Shown here piece after piece: positions 1,144 through 16,847 of a stretch of 20,044 nt of DNA. Numbering within the stretch: the stretch's first letter is position 1; each line of letters opens with the position of its first letter. The stretch comes from a virus. The translations under genes were made by a program, and so were the position numbers. The stretch covers positions 1 through 20,044 of the IMG/VR virus record IMGVR_UViG_3300021139_000205; one strand, written 5' to 3'. Under the pieces are notes generated by a model that saw nothing but the letters and a program-made list of their open reading frames with translations, did not search any database and was not told the DNA's origin.

Positions 1144-2733
1144 TTAGTTGTCTTTGTCGACCGTCCTTCTCTGTGGAATTTTAGTTCCATAGGCTTGGGT
1201 CACAAGCGCTTCACGAATTGAACTCTCGGATTGGTCCTCAAAACCAGCAGCGGCTTTGTTTTCAGGGCTGTCAATGTTTTCAGAAGTCTCTGGTCCTTGA
1301 ATACCATCGCCCATTACATCTCCGTCACCCAACTCTTGAGGGGCCATAGGAATAGCAGAGTTTCCATCTGGACCAGGCATCATTCCTGTCATATCCATAA
1401 TTTCTTTCTGAATCTGAATCTTGACCAATTGCAATGCGCCATCTGCAGTTGCATCTGAAATAAGTTCTTGACGAATCTCTTCTAGTTTCTCCTCTGGGAA
1501 TTCCTCACCAAGAGTACGAAGAGCACCTTCTTTAGACTCAAGCCCCATACCCAACTTAGTTTGAATTTCGTTAAGAATAATCAACTTATCAAGAGGCAAT
1601 GGAGGTGGGAACTGAACATAGTTCATGTAGGTAATAGAGTCATTAGGGTCAAGTTGTGTCAACTGACCTGGCTTAATTGGCCCATCTGTATCTGGGTTGT
1701 ATAAGAAAGTATCTGGCTCTTTGAAGGCAAGAGTACGAAGTACGAGTTCGTTAATCTTCTCAATGCCTTTACCGTATTGAGCAACTTTTTGGCTGTATCG
1801 GTTCATCAATGGCTGGTACTGAATAGAAAGAGCAACACCAGAAGTATTTGAAATTGGTTGAACTTGTCCAAGAGCAGTCTCTGGGATGTTCATAATCTCG
1901 TGCATAGACGTCTTAAGAAGGTCTAAATATTTAAGCGCTCCATCAATTCCTGATGCTCCACCTTCAAGGTTAAATACTTGTGAATCCTTTGGAAGACCGC
2001 CCCATACTTTCTTGGCGCCCTTTTCAAGGTTAGATGCTTTAGCACCGATGATAACTGTCACAGGAGAAGCGTGATAGTTAATGATGTCTGCTATATCTGT
2101 AGAGATTTCATTGTAAGCACGGTTAATAGTAATGATGTCATGTGCATCTGCTAGTCCCCATGGTGAGCCTGATACAGGCACATTAGGAATATGCACCACT
2201 GGAACTACTCCAAGTGGATTTGGGCGTGAGTCAATCAACTCATCATTAATGTATTCTTCAATAACATCATCAGTAAGAATCTCAGTATATGTGAATACTT
2301 GGCGCGTTCCTTCAAGAGAAGTTCCCCAGAAACGATACTTCTGCTTAAAACGAAGTAGACGTGTACGGTCGTGTGGGTGAAACTCAGGGAAACAAAATGA
2401 TGAGTTCATAGGAAGGATACGAACACGACCAGGATGTTGTCCTCCTGCTGAATCTACCCATGGCTCTTCGTATGCAACTTTAACAAATACATCGCCAGTA
2501 ATTCCGCCTTGCTGTGCCATTTCAAGTAGCACACGCATCTTGTCATTATCAACTTCCCACACACGCTCTAAGCGGTCAGGAACAATTGCTTCCGTTGCTT
2601 TTGGCGAACGAAAATGCACGCCTTTACCAAAAGTAAAACGTGCTAAGAAGTCATTAAATGCACGGTAGTAGTTAACTGCGATTTGCATTTCGCCAGTTTC
2701 TCTACGATAACCCCAATGGTGTCCCAAGTACAT
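1144..2733 (-). CDS. Portal protein, main body
   Basis: The 529-residue frame is a phage portal: an N-terminal region with YRRETGEMQIAVNYYRAF, a stem/wing region with GDVFVKVAYEE and LPMNSSFCFPEFHP, a central 'HIPNVPVSGSPWGLADAHDII' block (about residues 185-205), and a Gly/Asp-rich tail ending in DKDN. The portal forms the dodecameric ring through which DNA is packaged and ejected. The ATG at 2733 is probably not the true start. It lacks a good ribosome site, and the same frame upstream (2734-2778) reads EVHGPRLNRYSLNWA, which continues a portal N-terminus found one frame away at 2780-2887. Joined, the product would be about 580 residues. Confidence 0.88.
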   Translation of the reverse strand: MYLGHHWGYRRETGEMQIAVNYYRAFNDFLARFTFGKGVHFRSPKATEAIVPDRLERVWEVDNDKMRVLLEMAQQGGITGDVFVKVAYEEPWVDSAGGQHPGRVRILPMNSSFCFPEFHPHDRTRLLRFKQKYRFWGTSLEGTRQVFTYTEILTDDVIEEYINDELIDSRPNPLGVVPVVHIPNVPVSGSPWGLADAHDIITINRAYNEISTDIADIINYHASPVTVIIGAKASNLEKGAKKVWGGLPKDSQVFNLEGGASGIDGALKYLDLLKTSMHEIMNIPETALGQVQPISNTSGVALSIQYQPLMNRYSQKVAQYGKGIEKINELVLRTLAFKEPDTFLYNPDTDGPIKPGQLTQLDPNDSITYMNYVQFPPPLPLDKLIILNEIQTKLGMGLESKEGALRTLGEEFPEEKLEEIRQELISDATADGALQLVKIQIQKEIMDMTGMMPGPDGNSAIPMAPQELGDGDVMGDGIQGPETSENIDSPENKAAAGFEDQSESSIREALVTQAYGTKIPQRRTVDKDN

Positions 2734-2776: not shown

Positions 2777-2887
2777 TCATTCGAATTCCTCGTCTGCTAA
2801 TTCAACTAACCCCAGTGGGGAAATAGAAATTGTTAAATCAGAAGACGCCGCTCTATAAGAGGGCGGAGAAAAATCTAGGAAACTCAT
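2777..2887 (-). CDS. Portal N-terminal segment, 36 codons, separated by an apparent +1 frameshift
   Basis: An ATG at 2887 follows a near-perfect Shine-Dalgarno, AAGGAGGTGAT, at five-base spacing, one of the strongest ribosome sites in the window. It overlaps the upstream HNH stop as ATGA. The frame encodes 36 residues (starting MSFLDFSPPSYRAASS, ending ELADEEFE) and meets TGA at 2777-2779. Skipping one base puts translation into the portal frame at GAA 2776-2778, giving DEEFE-EVHGPRLNRY and then the 529-residue body. So this is almost certainly the real portal N-terminus. The break could be programmed +1 frameshifting at UGA, a genuine mutation, or a single-base assembly error. Confidence 0.75.
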   Translation of the reverse strand: MSFLDFSPPSYRAASSDLTISISPLGLVELADEEFE

Positions 2888-3525
2888 GGCATCACCTCCT
2901 TAATCTTAGGGAGGTTACGAACCTCAGTTGCAATTGCTTTTTTCATCTCATTTGTAAAAGGCCATGTTGCATTTTTTCTTACATTACAAGGATTGCATGC
3001 GGGGCGTAAATTATCAACAGTATGCGTTCCCCCCTTAGCAAGGGGCTGAACATGGTCCCAAAATACTTTAGTTAATTCTGTTTCACAAATCCAACAAGAG
3101 TTGTTATACATGTCTAATATTTTAGAATAATCTGCTTTTGTAATTTTTGCTACTTCTGTAGATGCTTTTTTAGCACGTCTTTCACGTTCTGAACGTGTCT
3201 GTACTTCTCTACGATAAATTTTGAACTCTGGGTCTGTAGCAAGACGTTCTTTAACTTTGTTGTATCTACGTTCTTTATTCTCTTGATGCCACTTACGTAA
3301 AGTTTCTTTGCTCCATTCAGGATTTGCCAAATGATATTCACGTGTTTTTTGAATTTTACTTTGTGGGTTTTGAGCGTATTTATCCCGTATACGAGCGTTG
3401 TTGCATTCACGGCAGTATACTTCTACGCCATCAAGTCTAGCCTTGTTTTTATGAAACCCATTTAAAGGTTTTTCAATGCCACACTTAGAACAGGTCTTCA
3501 TGCCTGTAATACTAGCAGTGGTCAT
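2884..3525 (-). CDS. HNH endonuclease with N-terminal zinc module
   Basis: The 213-residue protein has an N-terminal C-x2-C...C-x2-C module (Cys12, 15, 38, 41), a basic helical linker (about 45-125), and a C-terminal HNH domain: CWIC (144-147), DH (157-158), DNLRP (171-175) and a second CNPC pair (177-180). HNH proteins cut DNA using a beta-beta-alpha metal fold. Sitting alone between head genes suggests a free-standing homing endonuclease. It starts one base inside the previous gene's stop (TAATG) and ends in an ATGA overlap with the portal start, so the portal's ribosome site lies in its last codons. Its first 41 residues closely match the HNH protein at 13632-14102. Confidence 0.88.
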   Translation of the reverse strand: MTTASITGMKTCSKCGIEKPLNGFHKNKARLDGVEVYCRECNNARIRDKYAQNPQSKIQKTREYHLANPEWSKETLRKWHQENKERRYNKVKERLATDPEFKIYRREVQTRSERERRAKKASTEVAKITKADYSKILDMYNNSCWICETELTKVFWDHVQPLAKGGTHTVDNLRPACNPCNVRKNATWPFTNEMKKAIATEVRNLPKIKEVMP

Positions 3526-4317: not shown

Positions 4318-5901
4318 TTAAAAGAAGGGATTACTAGAAGCCACTACTTCTGGCATTACTAGGTTCTGGGTAAGGCTACAAGCAATAGAAAGTGAATCTA
4401 CAAAATCATCATGAGCATAGGTTTCTTCAGGAGCCGCTACAAGGAAATTTGGTCCTTTAAATGTAACTTCGGCATCAACCATTTGTTGATAAAACCTTTT
4501 GAAAGTACGAAGGCGCCGAGTTTTTGCATGGGCAGGCCAACTAATCATTTTGCGTTGAATAAGGGCTTGTAGGTGCTTCCATCTCTTAGATTGCTCTGAT
4601 GGGCTAGAAGTAATTGAACTTACTTCAGCACGTGGCAAGAGAAGTTTTAATCTTTGCGCTACAGCATCGCCCACACCGTTAGCGTCTACGCCTACGGCAA
4701 GGACATCATAATTTTCTAAGAAGTTAACAATTTGGAAGTACTGCTCTTCCCAATCGTCTCCTTGAATTTCTAGCCAATTCAAGACACGGTGGTCAAAATA
4801 CCCAAACTCATCTGGTCTATCCCAGTCTACCCACACAACAGTTACCACTGTTGAGTCAGTTTTACGTGCTGGGTCAACGCCAACTACTACTGGAGTTTTA
4901 TGCCAGGCTTTAACAATCTCTTGAGAGGTATCTCCAAGTTCATCCATGATTGTTGAAGTAACAAACATTCCACGTTCCAACAACCACTTACAGTTATACG
5001 ACATCTGGAACTCGTCAGAATCTTCACCAATACGAAGCATCTCTTTACGTATGAACTTTTCGTAATTTGCTTGAACTTTTGCTACATCTTTCCAATCCCA
5101 TTGAAAATGGTTTTGACGTGCACCACGTGCAGTTTGGCGTCTACGGTTAAGTTGGATACTTCTATAGAAGTTATTCTTACTGGTTGTAGGAGTACCTGTT
5201 TTAACCATTGTTCCAGCATAATAAGCAAGCATAGGTGAGATTGACTTAGACACAACAAAGTCATCTGCTTCTTGACACTCATCAATAACAACAACATGGA
5301 AAGACTTAGACTCAATTTTTGCACGAGGGTTTGCAGTCATCATCGTAATAGTAGAACCAGATTTCTTAAGTTTAATTTGACGAGTAACTCCACCTACACG
5401 TGCAGCGCTATCGTCAATTTCTGGGTCATCCATAATCTCAATAGCACGCTCAGATGTAAGACGTGTGACGGTACGTCCAAATAAAGTTTCAGCCTGTCCT
5501 TCTGTTGGGGCAAACAAACCAACCCATAAACCATCTTTAAATTTTCCAAGAAGGTCTGGGTATAACTTAGCAAGCCGAGGTAAAAGAACCATCAATGTCG
5601 CTACTGTATCTGCCACTGTTTCAGATTTACCTGATTGACGGGAAGCAAGGGCTGTAATTTCTTCACCATCGTTAATGACGACAGACTCAATAATGCGACG
5701 TGCTAAAGGTTTTTGATAAGGGTGCAAGTCATGACCAACTAGGACTACAAGAAAGTCCATAATCTTATCTATAAGTTTATTTACAAAATCTTGAGAAAGT
5801 TCATCCAGGTCATTGATAACCTCTTCTTCAACAGGTGTCTCATCTTGAAGATAAAATTCGGGGTTTATCTCTTCAAATTTTTCTTCGTTATAGTTTTCCA
5901 T
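4318..5901 (-). CDS. terL: Terminase large subunit
   Basis: The 527-residue protein is the packaging motor ATPase-nuclease. The ATPase half has the Q-motif-like HPYQ (60-63), Walker A SRQSGKS (87-93), Walker B VVVIDE (203-208) and a TGTPT coupling motif (235-239). The C-terminal RNase H-like nuclease has acidic residues at D343 (GVDPARKTDS), D406 (VGVDANGVGD) and D498/D502 (HDDFVDS). Length is normal for the family and the gene is intact. The ATG at 5901 follows AGGGAATT. It uses ATP to thread DNA through the portal into the prohead and cuts the concatemer. No separate small terminase was recognised beside it. Confidence 0.96.
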   Translation of the reverse strand: MENYNEEKFEEINPEFYLQDETPVEEEVINDLDELSQDFVNKLIDKIMDFLVVLVGHDLHPYQKPLARRIIESVVINDGEEITALASRQSGKSETVADTVATLMVLLPRLAKLYPDLLGKFKDGLWVGLFAPTEGQAETLFGRTVTRLTSERAIEIMDDPEIDDSAARVGGVTRQIKLKKSGSTITMMTANPRAKIESKSFHVVVIDECQEADDFVVSKSISPMLAYYAGTMVKTGTPTTSKNNFYRSIQLNRRRQTARGARQNHFQWDWKDVAKVQANYEKFIRKEMLRIGEDSDEFQMSYNCKWLLERGMFVTSTIMDELGDTSQEIVKAWHKTPVVVGVDPARKTDSTVVTVVWVDWDRPDEFGYFDHRVLNWLEIQGDDWEEQYFQIVNFLENYDVLAVGVDANGVGDAVAQRLKLLLPRAEVSSITSSPSEQSKRWKHLQALIQRKMISWPAHAKTRRLRTFKRFYQQMVDAEVTFKGPNFLVAAPEETYAHDDFVDSLSIACSLTQNLVMPEVVASSNPFF

Positions 5902-9800: not shown

Positions 9801-10110
9801 GGATATGCTCCACAATCTCGTTTATATGGCGCCTAAGTTCCTCAATATGATTATGAGTCTCTTGGTCCAATTTAAGGTCTTTACTAATGATACGCCTGTC
9901 TTCGTCCCCTGAACGGTTAGTCGCATTTAACAGAAGCCCTGACAATAAGATACTTTCTAAGGAAACTGTCAGGGTTAGTAAATTAAATGGATAAGGGTCA
10001 AAAATAGCAAAGGTCATCCAAAATCCCCAAAAGATTATGTGAAAGATAATGAACCAAGGAGAACCAAATGCAATGGAACACCAATCAGATATTTTTTGAA
10101 AATACTTCAT
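9778..10110 (-). CDS. DUF1003 family membrane protein in the lysis cassette
   Basis: The 110-residue product contains GSPWFIIFHIIFWGFWMTFA then FDPYPFNLLTLTVSLESILLSGLLLNATNR, the diagnostic core of DUF1003: two membrane helices (about 17-37 and 43-62) separated by a 'DPYPFNLLTL' turn. A cytoplasmic helix (about 68-105, with DRRIISKDLKLDQETHNHIEEL) follows, as in cellular homologues. DUF1003 has no settled function. Between the endolysin and two holin candidates it could act as holin, spanin-like or regulator; that is inference. The ATG at 10110 overlaps the endolysin stop as ATGA. Confidence 0.85.
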   Translation of the reverse strand: MKYFQKISDWCSIAFGSPWFIIFHIIFWGFWMTFAIFDPYPFNLLTLTVSLESILLSGLLLNATNRSGDEDRRIISKDLKLDQETHNHIEELRRHINEIVEHIRVKDKSL

Positions 10111-10967
10111 GATGTAGCCTTTGCAACCATTGAAGCGTAAGTATCAGAATCTAAAGTTTTTTTGCCTTTAAGTCCAGGATATTTTGCTTGGTACAAAGGT
10201 ACTAATGCTACATCTTCTGCTGTCATTGTTCCCTTTGCTAAAGCAGCGGGCATTAAACCTGCCTTGACTAATGCTTCTTCAACAATAAGAACTGCTTTAC
10301 TTTTGGTTCCTACTTTAAATCCTGCTGTTCCTGGAAATGGTGGTGCTACAACAACTGTTGGTGGTTTAAATGTAGAAGCAGGAGTGTTGTTATGAATAAC
10401 TGCAGCACCTCCACCACCTAATGCTGCTGCTCCTGCAACACCTGCTGCTAATCCTCTATTTTGACTTAACGAAGAAGAAGGCTTAACTGCACCTGGATAT
10501 GCTGGACGAACAATTGCCATAACATTTAAGTAAGGGCGATGACGAAGATAAACTCCGTTTCCGTCTGCTTGTGAACCAGAAGTGGAATGGTCAGGACTAG
10601 TGTTTCCTTCAATAGTTGTAAGGCCATCTGAAGAAGCACCTACAACAATACCTACATGGTCTGGCTGTGCTGCGTTAGTCCAACTAAAAAAGACAATATC
10701 GCCAGGTTGTGCGGAATACTTACCTACAACTTGCTTTTTCTTTTGAAACCAAAGCAAACCTGTTGGACAATAAGAAAAGCCTTTTTCTGTTTGAGCCGCA
10801 ACAATTGAACTTAAACCTGCTTGTTCAAAACACCAAGATACAAACATTGCACAGTAGGACTCATGGTCCATGCCATACCATTGCCCATATTTACTTTCGT
10901 TGTTTGGTCCTTCAATATACCCAATTTCTTGGCGTGCTATATTGACAACATCTATTCCACTACTCAC
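10107..10967 (-). CDS. Endolysin, CHAP-type amidase/peptidase
   Basis: The 286-residue product has an N-terminal CHAP domain (about 5-155). The catalytic Cys39 is in SYCAMFVSWC, His104 in QPDHVGIVVG, and the IEGN motif at 119-122 supplies the polar residue. Related motifs PGDIVFF and GVYLRHRPY are present. A Gly/Ala segment (172-190) links to a C-terminal domain (about 210-286) with 'FKVGTKSKAVLIVEEALVKAG', which resembles a degraded peptidoglycan-binding repeat. CHAP enzymes cleave peptidoglycan peptide or amide bonds to release progeny. It starts with GTG in a GTGA overlap with the previous gene. A tail-borne lysin is a weaker alternative. Confidence 0.88.
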   Translation of the reverse strand: MSSGIDVVNIARQEIGYIEGPNNESKYGQWYGMDHESYCAMFVSWCFEQAGLSSIVAAQTEKGFSYCPTGLLWFQKKKQVVGKYSAQPGDIVFFSWTNAAQPDHVGIVVGASSDGLTTIEGNTSPDHSTSGSQADGNGVYLRHRPYLNVMAIVRPAYPGAVKPSSSLSQNRGLAAGVAGAAALGGGGAAVIHNNTPASTFKPPTVVVAPPFPGTAGFKVGTKSKAVLIVEEALVKAGLMPAALAKGTMTAEDVALVPLYQAKYPGLKGKKTLDSDTYASMVAKATS

Positions 10968-11443
10968 TGATAAATCAACCTTTCAGCCAAATCTCCTGGT
11001 GTAACAATGTTTGCTGGTTTATTGCACAAATTAATGCTTGCTGCGTCATACGCAAGTGCAACCAACTCGGAACAAATAACACCGTAACGTTCAGCCATTT
11101 TCTCTAAAACTTTTGTATTTGCTAGTGCTTTTAATCCAAGAATTCTTAAAATTAAATTTGCAATATCTAGAAAACCATAAGGACGGTCTACTAAACGCTT
11201 TGCTTCTGTAACAATTTTATCTCTTTGTTCGTCAGTTAACTCTTCATGCTGGTTCCAACCAATAACTGGATATTGAGTAACTTTTCCAATAGCAACGCCT
11301 GTTGGATTGGCTTGGACAATAAGTCCATCACCAATATAGATAAAAGCATGATTCCATCGTGACATAGTCCCAAAACGAATCAACTTACCAAAGACTCCGC
11401 TAGTTTTAACTACTCCGTAATCTCCTAGACGTGGTTCATACAT
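10964..11443 (-). CDS. Permuted NlpC/P60 (YiiX-like) cysteine peptidase
   Basis: From the ATG at 11443 the product is 159 residues. GGAGGT lies eight bases upstream, so this start is preferred over an in-frame start at 11530 inside the HNH gene. The order of motifs is that of circularly permuted papain-like enzymes: GDYGVVKT, then His32 in WNHAFIYIGDG, and later Cys124 in GVICSELVALAY, followed by TPGDLAERL. Relatives include YiiX/YebB-like and LRAT-like proteins. It overlaps the HNH stop by eight bases and precedes the endolysin, so a second wall- or lipid-acting lysis enzyme is plausible; the substrate is unknown. Confidence 0.8.
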   Translation of the reverse strand: MYEPRLGDYGVVKTSGVFGKLIRFGTMSRWNHAFIYIGDGLIVQANPTGVAIGKVTQYPVIGWNQHEELTDEQRDKIVTEAKRLVDRPYGFLDIANLILRILGLKALANTKVLEKMAERYGVICSELVALAYDAASINLCNKPANIVTPGDLAERLIYQ

Positions 11444-11870
11444 TTTTCTGTACCTCCGCTGCTGGTAGTGTCCCTCTTTTACGAAAACGCAATGACTCCC
11501 ACAATGGGGCTGGTATTGAATGAATACCAAAATGTGTTCTGTGATGTGCAGTACATAGCACTTCTAAGTTTCCTGGGCTTTCAATCCATCTTTGAAAATC
11601 TTCATCATTGTCAAAATGAAGACCAAAATACTTTGCAACCCTTTCAGGGTCAACATTGTTAATTTGAGAAAATTCAACGTGGGTATGGTGTAACTCTGGT
11701 TGACCTGAACATAGGTCATCATTAATCACACATTGCCAAAGACCTTGGCGTTTAATTCGAGCCTTTGCTTGGTTAAACAAATGGTAATAAGAGTCTAACT
11801 CTCTTGGAGAGTGTTCAGGAACATTTGTTATAAGGTGAATAGCAAGGTGCTCAGAATGAGCCTCTGTCAT
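11436..11870 (-). CDS. HNH-type nuclease protein
   Basis: The 144-residue product has a zinc-stabilised HNH core: Cys47 and Cys54 (CVINDDLC), a PELHHTHVEF strand with His61-His62, an insertion with GLHFDNDEDFQRW, then SPGNLEVLCTAHHRTHFGIH with Asn101, Cys106 and His109-His110, and a conserved-looking PAPLWESLRFRKRG tail. The LHHTHVEF and PGNLEVLC spacing indicates a stable phage gene lineage, not a recently inserted homing enzyme. It starts in a TAATG overlap with a strong AAGGAG ribosome site. HNH proteins near packaging genes assist terminase in some phages; here it is in the lysis block. Confidence 0.8.
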   Translation of the reverse strand: MTEAHSEHLAIHLITNVPEHSPRELDSYYHLFNQAKARIKRQGLWQCVINDDLCSGQPELHHTHVEFSQINNVDPERVAKYFGLHFDNDEDFQRWIESPGNLEVLCTAHHRTHFGIHSIPAPLWESLRFRKRGTLPAAEVQKNV

Positions 11871-13460: not shown

Positions 13461-13600
13461 GGATTAATTTTGCCCCTTTTTTCGGTAAATGTATGTGCAT
13501 AATATGTGTCATAGATACTCGCTGGAAAGACTACTACTGTTCCGTGTGTGGGACAGGATTTGTCGTTGCGTCCATGGCAAGGTATTGTGAGCAGAAGCAT
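13457..13600 (-). CDS. Small 47-residue protein at the divergent junction
   Basis: From an ATG at 13600 the product is 47 residues: MLLLTIPCHGRNDKSCPTHG, then VVVFPASIYDTYYAHTFTEK and RGKINP. AGGAG lies five bases before this ATG, and the stop overlaps the next ATG as ATGA, the join typical of this genome; both favour a real gene. A longer start at 13654 would run into the opposite-strand HNH gene. Cys8, Cys16 and His19 could join in a metal site. Function unknown. Confidence 0.5.
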   Translation of the reverse strand: MLLLTIPCHGRNDKSCPTHGTVVVFPASIYDTYYAHTFTEKRGKINP

Positions 13601-13631
13601 AGGGGCTCCTATACCGAGAGAAAGACAGACC

Positions 13632-14102
13632 ATGAAGACATGCAACAGATGCAAGATAGAAAAACCTCTAACTGAGTTTAATAAGAAGAGGGAATCTGGC
13701 GTTCAGCCATATTGCAAACCTTGTCAAGGTGAGTATCAACGAGAGTTTTATGAAGATACTCGTTTAGATACACAGGCCAATATCTATAAAAATCGCAAAA
13801 TAAGAAAGAAATCTATTCATCAGTTTTTAGGGGACTTTTACTCCTCCAATCCTTGTGTAGATTGTGGGGAAGATGATATTCTGGTCCTAGAGTTTGACCA
13901 TGTGATAGGCAAGGAGTTTGGCTTAAATGAAGCCATACGAGATGCAGTATCTATAGAAAGAATAAAAGAAGAATTAACAAAGGGCGAAGTAAGATGTTGC
14001 AATTGCCACAGGCGGTTAACCTCTCATCAGCAAAATAGTTGGCGTGTTAAATACGTAAACGGAGAATTAGAAGATATGGAGTATGAAAATGGAAATAGTT
14101 AA
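13632..14102 (+). CDS. HNH endonuclease with N-terminal zinc module
   Basis: From the ATG at 13632 the product is 156 residues. It begins MKTCNRCKIEKPLTEFNKKR and has YCKPC at 27-31, an N-terminal C-x2-C...C-x2-C module almost identical in pattern to that of the HNH protein at 2884-3525. The C-terminal core has CVDC (75-78), EFDH (87-90) and a CCNCHRRL block (122-129), giving a zinc-held HNH fold. An upstream in-frame ATG (13548) adds 28 residues of no domain character; 13632 is preferred. It opens a three-gene plus-strand island, suggesting a mobile or homing origin. Confidence 0.85.
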   Translation: MKTCNRCKIEKPLTEFNKKRESGVQPYCKPCQGEYQREFYEDTRLDTQANIYKNRKIRKKSIHQFLGDFYSSNPCVDCGEDDILVLEFDHVIGKEFGLNEAIRDAVSIERIKEELTKGEVRCCNCHRRLTSHQQNSWRVKYVNGELEDMEYENGNS

Positions 14103-14598
14103 ACTAACCGAAACACAAATGATTAGAGCCTATACAGCAGGTATTAAACGCCAATGGCGCCATCGTGACCCAATTACAGGGGAGCGCTTCTCTACTCATC
14201 GCTTTACAGCCTATGACACCGCATTTGATGGTGACATTAAGGGTTGCTTAGTTGAGTGTGCAGTTGCCACTTACTATGGAACTCAATGGAACAGTGAAGA
14301 TTGGGACCTTGCAGAACATAGCGAACATAAGGGGTTACCAGATGTTGAGCCATACTTTGAGGTAAGACGTGCCAGAACAACAAAAGGGCAGTTAACTATT
14401 CGTAATACAGATGCCATTAACAAAGTGGCAGTACTTGGATGCGTAGATGAGAAGAACGAAAACATTGTCTATCTGCTAGGTGCTATCAAGATACGTGATG
14501 CACGTGAAGGAGTCTTTGAACAAGACGACAATGGGAACGTGTATGTTCCACAATCACTGCTACATACCGTCGCAGAGTTTGCGCCAGTCCATGCCTAA
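14083..14598 (+). CDS. PD-(D/E)XK-like phage protein
   Basis: The 171-residue product has spacing typical of a PD-(D/E)XK nuclease core: Glu58 in GCLVECAVATYYG, PDV at 86-88, and EVR at 93-95 in place of the usual E-x-K, followed by a strand with LTIRNTDAINKVAVLG. The protein at 18211-18771 has the same layout with an intact EVK, so they are diverged paralogues. The Arg in place of Lys could weaken catalysis. Starts at 14083 and 14089 are both in frame; 14089 has the better-spaced GGAG. It overlaps the HNH gene's end by up to 20 bases. Nuclease activity is inferred. Confidence 0.65.
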   Translation: MKMEIVKLTETQMIRAYTAGIKRQWRHRDPITGERFSTHRFTAYDTAFDGDIKGCLVECAVATYYGTQWNSEDWDLAEHSEHKGLPDVEPYFEVRRARTTKGQLTIRNTDAINKVAVLGCVDEKNENIVYLLGAIKIRDAREGVFEQDDNGNVYVPQSLLHTVAEFAPVHA

Positions 14599-14767
14599 AT
14601 ACGAATACTCATGTATAACGTGTGATATTACTATTGAACACGAACGTAGCATCCACGATGAAGAGCCTAGATACCCTTGCCCATCATGCGGTTACTCATT
14701 AACCCGTGTGTACACACCTTTTGGTTTACAGTTTAAGGGAAATGGCTTTTATAAAACAGGCGGTTAG
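14591..14767 (+). CDS. FmdB-type zinc-ribbon protein
   Basis: The 58-residue product reads MPKYEYSCITCDITIEHERS, then CPSCG (30-34), and ends FGLQFKGNGFYKTGG. 'MPxYEYxCxxC...CPxCG...FKGxGFYxT' is the FmdB zinc-ribbon pattern, with Cys8, Cys11, Cys30 and Cys33 as the zinc ligands. The family was named for a putative regulator of formamidase genes and is common as a small accessory protein in bacteria and phages. It overlaps the previous stop by eight bases. Its stop overlaps the converging minus-strand gene by four bases. Confidence 0.9.
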   Translation: MPKYEYSCITCDITIEHERSIHDEEPRYPCPSCGYSLTRVYTPFGLQFKGNGFYKTGG

Positions 14768-15060
14768 TCTGCTTGAATGCCCATAGATTCTAAGTAAATG
14801 TCTTTTTCAGACATGAGGAAATCTCTAATCTGTGTAGTGCGAGCCGTAATCTGCTCTTCTGTCTGTGTAATAATGTCTTTTTCCAATTCTTCTTTATGCG
14901 CTTCGTATTGTTCAATGGCGTAATCTAACACCGATTGTGCAGTTGCCGCTTTTAATTGTGCATCTTCCCAACGTGCTTTAGCGCGTTCTTCTTTTGTCTG
15001 CAATATAAAGGCATTTGCCTCCATCTGCTTTTGTTCAATCTTTTCTTTTGCCTTACTCAT
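14764..15060 (-). CDS. Coiled-coil partner of the proteasome-like protein
   Basis: The 98-residue product is helical throughout, rich in Glu, Lys, Ala and Gln, with a long coiled coil (about 2-75: KAKEKIEQKQMEANAFILQT, then QYEAHKEELEKDI) and a short end with SEKDIYLESMGIQAD. There is no ATPase motif and no HbYX-type C-terminus of proteasome activators. Its ATG overlaps the stop of the Ntn-hydrolase gene as ATGA, so the two are translationally coupled. An adaptor, substrate or lid role is a guess from that coupling alone. Confidence 0.65.
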   Translation of the reverse strand: MSKAKEKIEQKQMEANAFILQTKEERAKARWEDAQLKAATAQSVLDYAIEQYEAHKEELEKDIITQTEEQITARTTQIRDFLMSEKDIYLESMGIQAD

Positions 15061-15608
15061 TTTTTTAATTGCTCCACAACTTGATATGGTCCTGATGTAT
15101 ACACGGTTAGTTTAGCAGCGATATCAACTGCTTCAACTGGGGTGGCTCCTGCATGAAGAGCGCCCAAAGCATATGGTGCACCTGAACCTACGCCATAGAA
15201 ACCGTCTTCTGAACGACAGACAGATAAGTCATCTGCTATGTCGAATAATTCGCCATTAATAGAAATAATGAAATGAAAACGCTGTTCATCAGCCTTTCCA
15301 TCGCCCTTACCTTCTGCAAAGTCATAGCCGTTATCCACAAGGCATTTGCGAAAGGATGGCATCGCTTTAGTAATTACATAGTGATAAATGTCTTTTTTAT
15401 CTTTAACAGTCAACGCTGGTGGATTCCACAGGTGTTGAATGACGTCGCATGGTTGAACCTCGCCACTTCCTGCAACAAGAATAGGACCACGTTCTGCAAT
15501 CTTCTTCATGTCAGGATGGTTAAAACGACGACCCGTGTCATCAGTTACTTGATTATCGGCAACAATTACCGATTTGTTCTTGTACTGAACTCCAACGATG
15601 GTCGTCAT
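15057..15608 (-). CDS. HslV/proteasome-beta-like Ntn hydrolase
   Basis: The 183-residue product begins MTTIVGVQYKNKSVIVADNQ. Removal of Met leaves an N-terminal Thr, the nucleophile of HslV and proteasome beta subunits. Asp18 matches the family's Asp17, and the KK pair at 35-36 matches the catalytic Lys33 region. Later motifs are AGSGEVQ (46-52), FIISINGELFDI (113-124), the diagnostic GVGSGAPYALGAL (139-151) and AVDIAAKLTVYTSGPYQVVE near the end. Length equals HslV, with no propeptide. The ATG at 15608 has AAGGAG at about eight bases. No ATPase partner gene is visible; it could use a host unfoldase, act alone, or mature virion proteins. Confidence 0.9.
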   Translation of the reverse strand: MTTIVGVQYKNKSVIVADNQVTDDTGRRFNHPDMKKIAERGPILVAGSGEVQPCDVIQHLWNPPALTVKDKKDIYHYVITKAMPSFRKCLVDNGYDFAEGKGDGKADEQRFHFIISINGELFDIADDLSVCRSEDGFYGVGSGAPYALGALHAGATPVEAVDIAAKLTVYTSGPYQVVEQLKK

Positions 15609-15774: not shown

Positions 15775-16116
15775 TTACTCGTGAATAACAGGGATAAGCA
15801 TATGAGGGTCAATAGAAGCCGCTGCTGCCACCCTGTGGTGCCCATCATTGAGGATATGACCTCCCATGAACTCCATCATACGAACAGGCTTCTGAACGCC
15901 CTTCTTCTTAATGCTAGAGGTAAGGCGTTCGCTCTTGGCTTCCTTGGCTTTCCTATCCCACATCTGGTCTGCTGACTCCCTGCCGTTGGTAACAGTAGGT
16001 CCTGCAAAAGGCATATGGAACCATTGACGGTCAGGTGACTTCTTGCCTGTCATAGCCTTGACTTCCCCTGCAGGCATGAACATGGCTAATTGCTTATGGG
16101 AGAGGGGTGCGCTCAT
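15775..16116 (-). CDS. ParB/sulfiredoxin-fold protein
   Basis: The 113-residue product has a C-terminal ParB-like core: LTSSIKKKGVQKPVRMMEFM, then GGHILNDGHHRVAAAASIDP and MLIPVIHE. 'LxDGHHRxAAA' is the GxHRxxAA nucleotide-binding motif of the ParB N-terminal/Srx superfamily. The DNA-binding helix-turn-helix and dimerisation domains of true ParB are absent, so this is a stand-alone domain, as in many phage proteins. It could bind or hydrolyse a nucleotide. It starts in an ATGA overlap with the HNH gene upstream and closes that coupled cluster. Confidence 0.8.
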   Translation of the reverse strand: MSAPLSHKQLAMFMPAGEVKAMTGKKSPDRQWFHMPFAGPTVTNGRESADQMWDRKAKEAKSERLTSSIKKKGVQKPVRMMEFMGGHILNDGHHRVAAAASIDPHMLIPVIHE

Positions 16117-16385
16117 CGGTTCTTGTTACCTTTGCCAATATTTTTAGACGCCTTCATCACCTGGAGGTTCTTAGAACCATTGTTATGTTTGTTATTGTCT
16201 TTGTGGTCGACGTGCTCATCTTTCTTGAGTTTGCGCCCCAGCGACTTTTCCTTCTTGTAACGTGCCTCATGAGTCGAGGTGGTCTTTTGAGTCTTAGGGT
16301 CGTACTCGACCATCATTGTACGTCCGCCCTTGTTTTTATCTTTGTACGGCCCGTACACTTTTTTCTTCTTGGATGGCAATGTCAT
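16113..16385 (-). CDS. Small HNH-type DNA-binding/nuclease protein
   Basis: The 90-residue, lysine-rich product reads VYGPYKDKNKGGRTMMVEYD, then ARYKKEKSLGRKLKKDEHVD and HKDNNKHNNGSKNLQVMKAS. 'ARYxxEKxxGRxLxxxExVDHKDxNKxNNxxxNLQ' is the HNH motif of short homing-type nucleases (H-N-N core). It lacks zinc-binding cysteines. It is coupled by ATGA at both ends, to the ADP-ribosyltransferase upstream and the ParB-like gene downstream, so it is embedded in a stable operon. Nicking DNA at a phage or host site is the family expectation. Confidence 0.8.
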   Translation of the reverse strand: MTLPSKKKKVYGPYKDKNKGGRTMMVEYDPKTQKTTSTHEARYKKEKSLGRKLKKDEHVDHKDNNKHNNGSKNLQVMKASKNIGKGNKNR

Positions 16386-16738
16386 TCTTTAATCTCCTCC
16401 ATTGTATCTGGATGGTGCTTGCTCAGAACGACTGCCTCACGGAAGTGGTAAGAGATGCCCTTCATGCCCCACTTAACTTCTTTATCGTGACGCTTCTGAC
16501 CTACTGGCTTCACTTTGTAGATGTGGCCTGATGGACCAGTCTCTGATGTGTCTTCTGGTCCGTGTGCATAGATGCGAGCGGTGATTAAGTGCAATGGTGT
16601 CACATAGACACGGTCATGGTGATATAAAGGATTGCTTGGTCGTGGGTTTGGTAATCCACGAGCAGCAGGTGACTGGATGACATCTCCTGGCTTAAAGTGT
16701 GCTGTGGAACCGTGATAGAACTCTTCTTGTCTAGGCAT
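16382..16738 (-). CDS. Arr-like (rifampin-type) ADP-ribosyltransferase
   Basis: From the ATG at 16738 (AAGGTT upstream; a TTG at 16744 is also possible) the product is 118 residues. Numbering from that ATG, it has FYHGSTAHFKPGDVI (7-21), a SPAARG turn, RVYVTP (43-48), ARIYAHG (54-60) and GHIYKVKPVG (71-80). This follows the Arr pattern 'YHGTxADLxPGDxI...VYFT...A...GRIYxVEPxG', in which the YHG and VYVT segments line the NAD site. Arr enzymes modify rifampin, but phage relatives more probably modify a host protein or nucleic acid. It overlaps the zinc-peptide gene upstream by eight bases. Confidence 0.75.
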   Translation of the reverse strand: MPRQEEFYHGSTAHFKPGDVIQSPAARGLPNPRPSNPLYHHDRVYVTPLHLITARIYAHGPEDTSETGPSGHIYKVKPVGQKRHDKEVKWGMKGISYHFREAVVLSKHHPDTMEEIKE

Positions 16739-16847
16739 TAGCAACCTTGCAATACTGACATGGGCATGAGTGGGTAAAGCATGGGCATTCTTCTCCTGAT
16801 TGCATCATGCCCTCGCCCTGACAGAGATAGCAGACTTTGGTGCTCAT
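16731..16847 (-). CDS. 38-residue cysteine-rich peptide
   Basis: An ATG at 16847 opens 38 codons ending TAG at 16731. The peptide reads MSTKVCYLCQGEGMMQSGEE, then CPCFTHSCPCQYCKVANA, with seven cysteines (6, 9, 21, 23, 28, 30, 33). CYLCQGEG is a DnaJ-type zinc-ribbon half. The start overlaps the upstream stop as ATGA and the stop lies within the ADP-ribosyltransferase start, so it is coupled at both ends, good evidence that it is translated. Probably binds one or two zinc ions; function unknown. Confidence 0.65.
   Translation of the reverse strand: MSTKVCYLCQGEGMMQSGEECPCFTHSCPCQYCKVANA

Follow-up and report, generated by a model that had tools for sequence, protein, structure and literature searches.

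A proteasome-like peptidase gene of freshwater actinophages is associated with a conserved gene for a small helical protein

Introduction

Twenty-two (22) proteasome homologues outside the classical systems have been defined, and both PPH and AAH have been reported in phages (Fuchs, Alva and Lupas 2021, PMC8665760). PPH, with some 140 aa, lacks helix H2 and is known mainly from proteobacterial phages and hosts; the same survey contained no AAH from a phage specific to Actinobacteria and saw nothing informative in the gene context (PMC8665760). Together with the family phrog_1040, PPH and AAH represent phage-encoded proteasome-like peptidases that have neither a propeptide nor a known AAA+ partner, and the annotation 'peptidase HslV family' is found in many GenBank phages. 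The betaproteobacterial proteasome homologue (BPH; PDB 5OVS and 5OVU) is cellular and has a long pore loop and no known unfoldase. Its authors detected no protease activity of BPH in their assays and suggested an unknown cofactor; no helical partner gene has been described for BPH. Neither substrates nor cofactors are known for BPH, PPH, AAH and the other non-classical proteasome homologues.

Here we analyse a 20,044-nt virus fragment (IMG/VR record IMGVR_UViG_3300021139_000205, positions 1-20,044), hereafter the window, which encodes a peptidase of this kind. A preliminary description had suggested that this peptidase and the small helical protein encoded after it could form an undescribed phage proteolysis system. 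Phage proteasome homologues have already been described and the window peptidase is a member of this known kind of phage gene (PPH/AAH 2021; phrog_1040), so what may be new is at most its pairing with the helical protein.

Results

A virus of freshwater actinobacteria

The window carries a terminase, an SPP1-type portal, a scaffold-like gene and lysins (Table 1), and its head module lies about 10 kb away from the peptidase gene. An HNH endonuclease gene sits amid the head genes (2884-3525; Pfam HNH_5, E = 6e-10), and there is a second, putative HNH-like ORF on the plus strand (13548-14102). Related records reach 95-100 kb and carry putative contractile-tail-like genes. WhiB genes were present in 13/13 long records tested, and Corynebacterium was the only positive among 14 control genomes; the hosts are therefore actinobacteria, and the window virus infects freshwater actinobacteria. 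A scan of the genome collection with the A1 peptidase profile returned zero relatives. A second genome scan, using one peptidase as the query, found BPH-like genes alone (27-31% identity) and therefore gave no host genome. These cellular relatives were all betaproteobacterial genes of the BPH clade, one of which matches the PDB BPH at 1e-66.

Table 1. Coordinates of the main features of the window and the evidence for each
Feature	Position	Strand	Basis
Proteasome-like (Ntn, N-terminal threonine) peptidase, 183 aa, predicted group I / BPH-like fold, phrog_1040	15057..15608	-	ORF, profile, model, conservation
ATG start and first Thr codon; no propeptide, catalytic Thr1 would be exposed by loss of Met	15603..15608	-	Homologue starts, RBS
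Two-helix (hairpin-like) protein, 98 aa, proposed partner/cap/adaptor of the peptidase	14764..15060	-	ORF, model, linkage
ATGA stop/start overlap of peptidase and helical genes	15057..15060	-	Sequence
Terminase large subunit	4318..5901	-	Pfam and PHROGs matches
SPP1-type portal	1144..2733	-	PF05133, E = 2.7e-23
Lysis-type hydrolases (CHAP; NlpC/P60-like)	10107..11530	-	Context of peptidase

An N-terminal-threonine peptidase with invariant catalytic residues

The peptidase begins MTTIVG, and its close homologues start at the same point with MTT or LTT. A Shine-Dalgarno-like AGAAGGAG is located 7 nt ahead of the ATG. This agrees with the preliminary description, in which removal of the methionine alone was expected to expose the catalytic threonine. 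Numbered from that threonine, the Asp is residue 17 and the equivalent of Lys33, shifted by a 2-residue insertion, is residue 35. The Asp17/Lys33 region and the glycine-rich motif that had been singled out are likewise retained: the window copy contains GSGAPYALGAL, and T2, D18, K36, G47-S48-G49 and S142 (window numbering) were invariant in 52 distinct close sequences. The Thr, Asp, Lys and Gly were also invariant across 15 divergent phage homologues, including Arthrobacter and Microbacterium proteins only 23-25% identical. The position of proteasome Asp166 varied, being Thr in the window copy and Asp, Ser and Thr in 29, 21 and 2 of the 52 sequences, respectively. The median dN/dS of 0.085 (372 pairs) indicates that the peptidase is under purifying selection. 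Taken with its match to the phrog_1040 'peptidase HslV family' (E = 2.6e-31, residues 1-180), which places it in that family by profile, and with a confident model of the Ntn fold, this identifies the peptidase as a real gene.

All of the divergent relatives tested matched phrog_1040 as well. The match of the window peptidase to Pfam Proteasome fell just short of the cut-off (E = 2.6e-4), and 30/34 aligned relatives match that family. The AlphaFold (AF2) model of the peptidase (mean pLDDT 90.1, pTM 0.86) has helices at residues 51-60, 68-72/74-92, 144-152 and 157-167. Foldseek placed this model closest to BPH (5ovs, E = 3.7e-11), followed by HslV and proteasome beta subunits, and the best match of the sequence profile in the PDB was also BPH (5ovu, E = 5.6e-7). 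The modelled protein thus has the Ntn fold that the preliminary description had required, and it combines the core fold of the proteasome-like Ntn superfamily with an N-terminal Thr nucleophile, Asp17, Lys33 and the Gly47 oxyanion hole. Judged by sequence and predicted structure, its identity as a phage-encoded N-terminal-threonine proteasome-like peptidase, as first proposed, is secure.

The more specific label of HslV/proteasome-beta-like stands for a proteasome-like Ntn peptidase and falls for HslV proper. With equivalog cut-offs at 137 and 157.75 bits, the protein reached 25.9 and 23.7 bits, respectively, and among solved structures its closest relative is BPH. With HslV it shares the fold, the MTT-type N-terminus and the GSG motif; unlike HslV, it has no adjacent hslU, and none was recognised in the long relatives. 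Membership of BPH was rejected because BPH formed a separate clade in the peptidase tree (support 100/99). PPH was rejected on the grounds that the window protein has 183 aa and, in its model, both helix pairs. On its length and the presence of both helix pairs, membership of AAH would be possible. Unlike the PPH and AAH of PMC8665760, the present peptidases belong to phages of actinobacterial hosts and have a conserved partner gene. In the tree, the window clade (A), clade B, the Planktophila-phage lineage (P39) and BPH each formed a single clade. A, B and P39 grouped with phage proteins from DSL-LC01, Arthrobacter and Pumpernickel, apart from BPH and the coliphage forms; deep joins and long-branch places (HslV, LeeroyJenkins) were left out of our conclusions.

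The closest matches in annotated collections were from LanE43AprE7 (E7) and F5, both isolated on Ca. Planktophila LanE-43 (OX376640, OX376641; PMC10202952), with peptidases 39.5% identical to that of the window. Their clade is the sister of the window clade (support 94/91), and the F5 record contains a WhiB gene. Unlike the window lineage, these phages have 39-kb genomes, with the peptidase gene after the portal and no helical gene; in its place, an 84-aa gene overlaps the peptidase stop. The 84-aa gene was directly downstream of the peptidase in 35/58 loci of the lineage (L338-L417; for example L078:20534-20788), in many of them with a 4-nt overlap. Distinct from the helical gene, it is another candidate partner and was assigned to no family.

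A helical gene accompanies two diverged peptidase clades

The 98-aa product of the gene after the peptidase was modelled by AF2 (pLDDT 91.8) as two helices, at residues 3-58 and 61-92. We found no credible relative of it in Pfam, PHROGs, NCBIfam, INPHARED or the PDB (sequence and fold). No homology to Bpa/PafE was found, there being no PDB profile match below E = 0.17 and no fold match below E = 0.5, and Bpa/PafE was absent among the fold matches listed. Bpa, the mycobacterial ATP-independent proteasome activator, is the longer protein and works on the 20S core, to which it binds through a C-terminal GQYL motif. It is an analogy only, in that a small all-helical protein could feed an actinobacterial core without ATP.

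The junction of the two genes reads ...AAAAAAATGAGTAAG, and the ATGA overlap from which their synthesis had been taken to be tied together is present in the window. Only a minority of relatives keep it: the overlap occurred in 10/75, gaps of up to 30 nt in 35/75 and larger gaps in 30/75, so coupling by ATGA was rejected as a conserved feature. Linkage of the genes themselves extends far beyond the window. The helical gene was found at most 1.5 kb downstream in 73 of the 82 distinct A-type peptidase homologues that were testable, that is, had enough downstream sequence. In the reverse scan, starting from the helical gene, an A-type peptidase lay within 2.5 kb at 67 loci, and the remaining helical loci were at a contig end or had a B-type peptidase alongside. 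In this independent scan, all testable copies (upstream sequence present) adjoined a proteasome-like gene. Each of the six B-type loci was compared with the A-type locus whose helical protein was most alike: the peptidases were 27.7-37% identical and the helical proteins 77-91% identical. L109, a truncated A-type copy, was excluded from the B-type set.

Presence and absence of the pair were also scored with the terminase as a peptidase-independent bait. Twelve of the 14 terminase-selected contigs (12/14) contained the peptidase. The contig of G026, which lacked it, was cut just before the helical gene, and G025 (95.7 kb) had neither gene. The helical gene was missing from the L052 and L208 subgroups, from G024 and from the Planktophila-phage lineage, and the peptidase can therefore do without it. 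The preliminary description would have been weakened by homologues never linked to the helical gene; they are linked in close relatives and unlinked only in distant ones (the L052 subgroup, the Planktophila-phage lineage and coliphages).

These observations are good evidence for an association of the peptidase and helical genes. Two readings of it remain: the helical protein is a functional partner, or both genes sit in a conserved late cluster whose peptidase gene was exchanged in situ. If the latter, the peptidase would be a real proteasome-like enzyme and the helical gene a mere neighbour with no action on it. The gene upstream of the peptidase is likewise kept, being a lysin in 60/76 loci, and peptidase subgroups without the helical gene do exist. 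In some relatives the peptidase and helical genes are 1-2 kb apart with other genes between them, and translational coupling is not conserved. Identities of the peptidases and helical proteins were only weakly correlated (r = 0.35), and recombination at a fixed site may have exchanged A-type for B-type peptidases. Against this, every testable helical gene adjoins a proteasome-like gene, across two peptidase clades, and both genes are jointly absent from G025. The pair also holds where the flanking genes have changed: the gene 3' of the helical gene is highly variable (at least 12 families), and in the window the pair is intact though the lysis-type hydrolase gene found directly upstream of the peptidase in most relatives does not lie there, a ParB-like gene taking that position. 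We consider a mere neighbour unlikely, while giving that explanation appreciable weight.

Several other genes lie near the pair. The ParB-like protein (113 aa, 15775-16116) has weak PHROG matches, and several similar-looking genes stand in a row in G025. An FmdB-like zinc-ribbon gene (14480-14767, plus strand) is convergent with the pair, and a gene of FmdB-like type is inserted between the peptidase and helical genes in L015, L030, L031 and L035. The 120-aa protein at 16382-16744 weakly matched a rifampin ADP-ribosyltransferase (Arr-ms, E = 0.0087, below the cut-off), and relatives carry similar 'HGSTxHLKPGDVIQSPAARG' genes (for example G001:24534-24890). A putative secreted subtilisin-like protein of 298 aa is encoded at G003:91876-92772 and G001:49010-49906; in G003 its gene adjoins the lysis and peptidase region.

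No unfoldase gene of HslU or ARC type was found

The preliminary description had seen no HslU or ARC/Mpa-like ATPase, and a wider survey agrees. In the 20-kb window, no ATPase gene was recognised apart from the terminase. In 16 long relatives, which are possibly incomplete, no HslU- or ARC-type gene was found, and no match to AAA_2 (HslU/ClpX type) exceeded the cut-off. Weak AAA matches were rejected as unfoldases: those scanned, in two genomes, were of the CobS/MoxR-type AAA_5 and belonged to a separate module on the other strand. The CobS-like AAA_5 gene stands beside a large gene in relatives of about 100 kb (G001:28-31 kb; G003:78-82 kb; L236, L243/L244), and in G001 this large gene is CobT-like VWA.

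Discussion

With moderate confidence, we interpret the peptidase as a phage-borne, self-compartmentalising enzyme of group I (HslV/BPH-type) that works independently of ATP, with the helical protein as its cap or adaptor, late in infection. On sequence and model, the Ntn-fold subunit would expose its N-terminal Thr by Met removal and use the conserved equivalents of Thr1, Asp17, Lys33, Gly47 and Ser129. By analogy with its relatives, the enzyme would be a double ring, with six or seven subunits per ring, that encloses the active sites. The absence of an ATPase gene suggests that no dedicated phage ATPase is needed, and unfolded or peptide substrates may enter unaided, as has been proposed for BPH and the free 20S core. 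Linkage points to the helical protein as the partner, which would most likely serve as a cap or a substrate adaptor that needs no ATP; a role in inhibition or assembly is less likely. Location in the late lysis/packaging region suggests late action, and the probable task would be removal of specific host or phage proteins or the recycling of unfolded protein. We favour such a chamber because no unfoldase gene was found, because BPH, likewise with no known ATPase, offers a precedent in which a cofactor was suggested, and because the lowest-pLDDT loop of the peptidase model (residues about 93-110, after the second helix), predicted to be flexible, falls where BPH has its long pore loop. More tentatively, we propose a two-component module in which a dedicated helical-hairpin cap or adaptor serves two deeply diverged, ATPase-free cores.

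Alternatively, a host unfoldase (Mpa/ARC, ClpX or ClpC) could use the peptidase as its chamber, and the phage would thereby redirect host degradation to host or anti-phage proteins. The lack of a detected phage AAA+ unfoldase would fit, as would the actinobacterial hosts. Actinobacteria typically possess Mpa and Clp ATPases. To our knowledge, they mostly lack HslU. We found no alpha-type subunit that would offer docking pockets. No AAA+ protein was reported to co-occur with such homologues either (Fuchs et al., PMC8665760), and we regard recruitment of a host unfoldase as improbable.

A third role put forward earlier, prohead maturation, would have the peptidase replace the usual serine protease and cleave scaffold or capsid inside the prohead. 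In the Planktophila-phage lineage the portal gene is immediately followed by the peptidase gene at 53/53 testable loci. Between portal and capsid of F5 the peptidase was the only protease recognised, and no other maturation protease was seen in the head module of the window. In the window lineage, however, the gene is distant from the head genes, and G025, whose portal, scaffold and major capsid protein are 80%, 58% and 85% identical, lacks the peptidase; its region from terminase to auxiliary genes is contiguous, but the record is possibly incomplete and the gene may have been relocated to the missing sequence. Microbacterium phage LeeroyJenkins has a proteasome-like protease and a separate canonical capsid maturation protease. 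We know of no maturation protease that is an Ntn hydrolase. Because G025 has neither gene of the pair and LeeroyJenkins has both proteases, the peptidase does not fit the class of serine-type capsid maturation proteases needed for heads in the lineage; such a role is unlikely in the window lineage and possible in the Planktophila-phage lineage, and as a general account of the peptidase we find it very improbable.

The new element is the conserved helical partner gene, common to two peptidase clades in actinophages. Kept beside two diverged clades, it provides a concrete first candidate cofactor for non-classical proteasome homologues. If the two-component module proposed above is correct, the helical protein would be the first cofactor identified for a proteasome homologue of BPH, PPH or AAH type, and this could explain why BPH alone showed no activity. 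The homologues in E7 and F5, the first cultured Nanopelagicales phages, provide a system in which the peptidase may be studied during infection.
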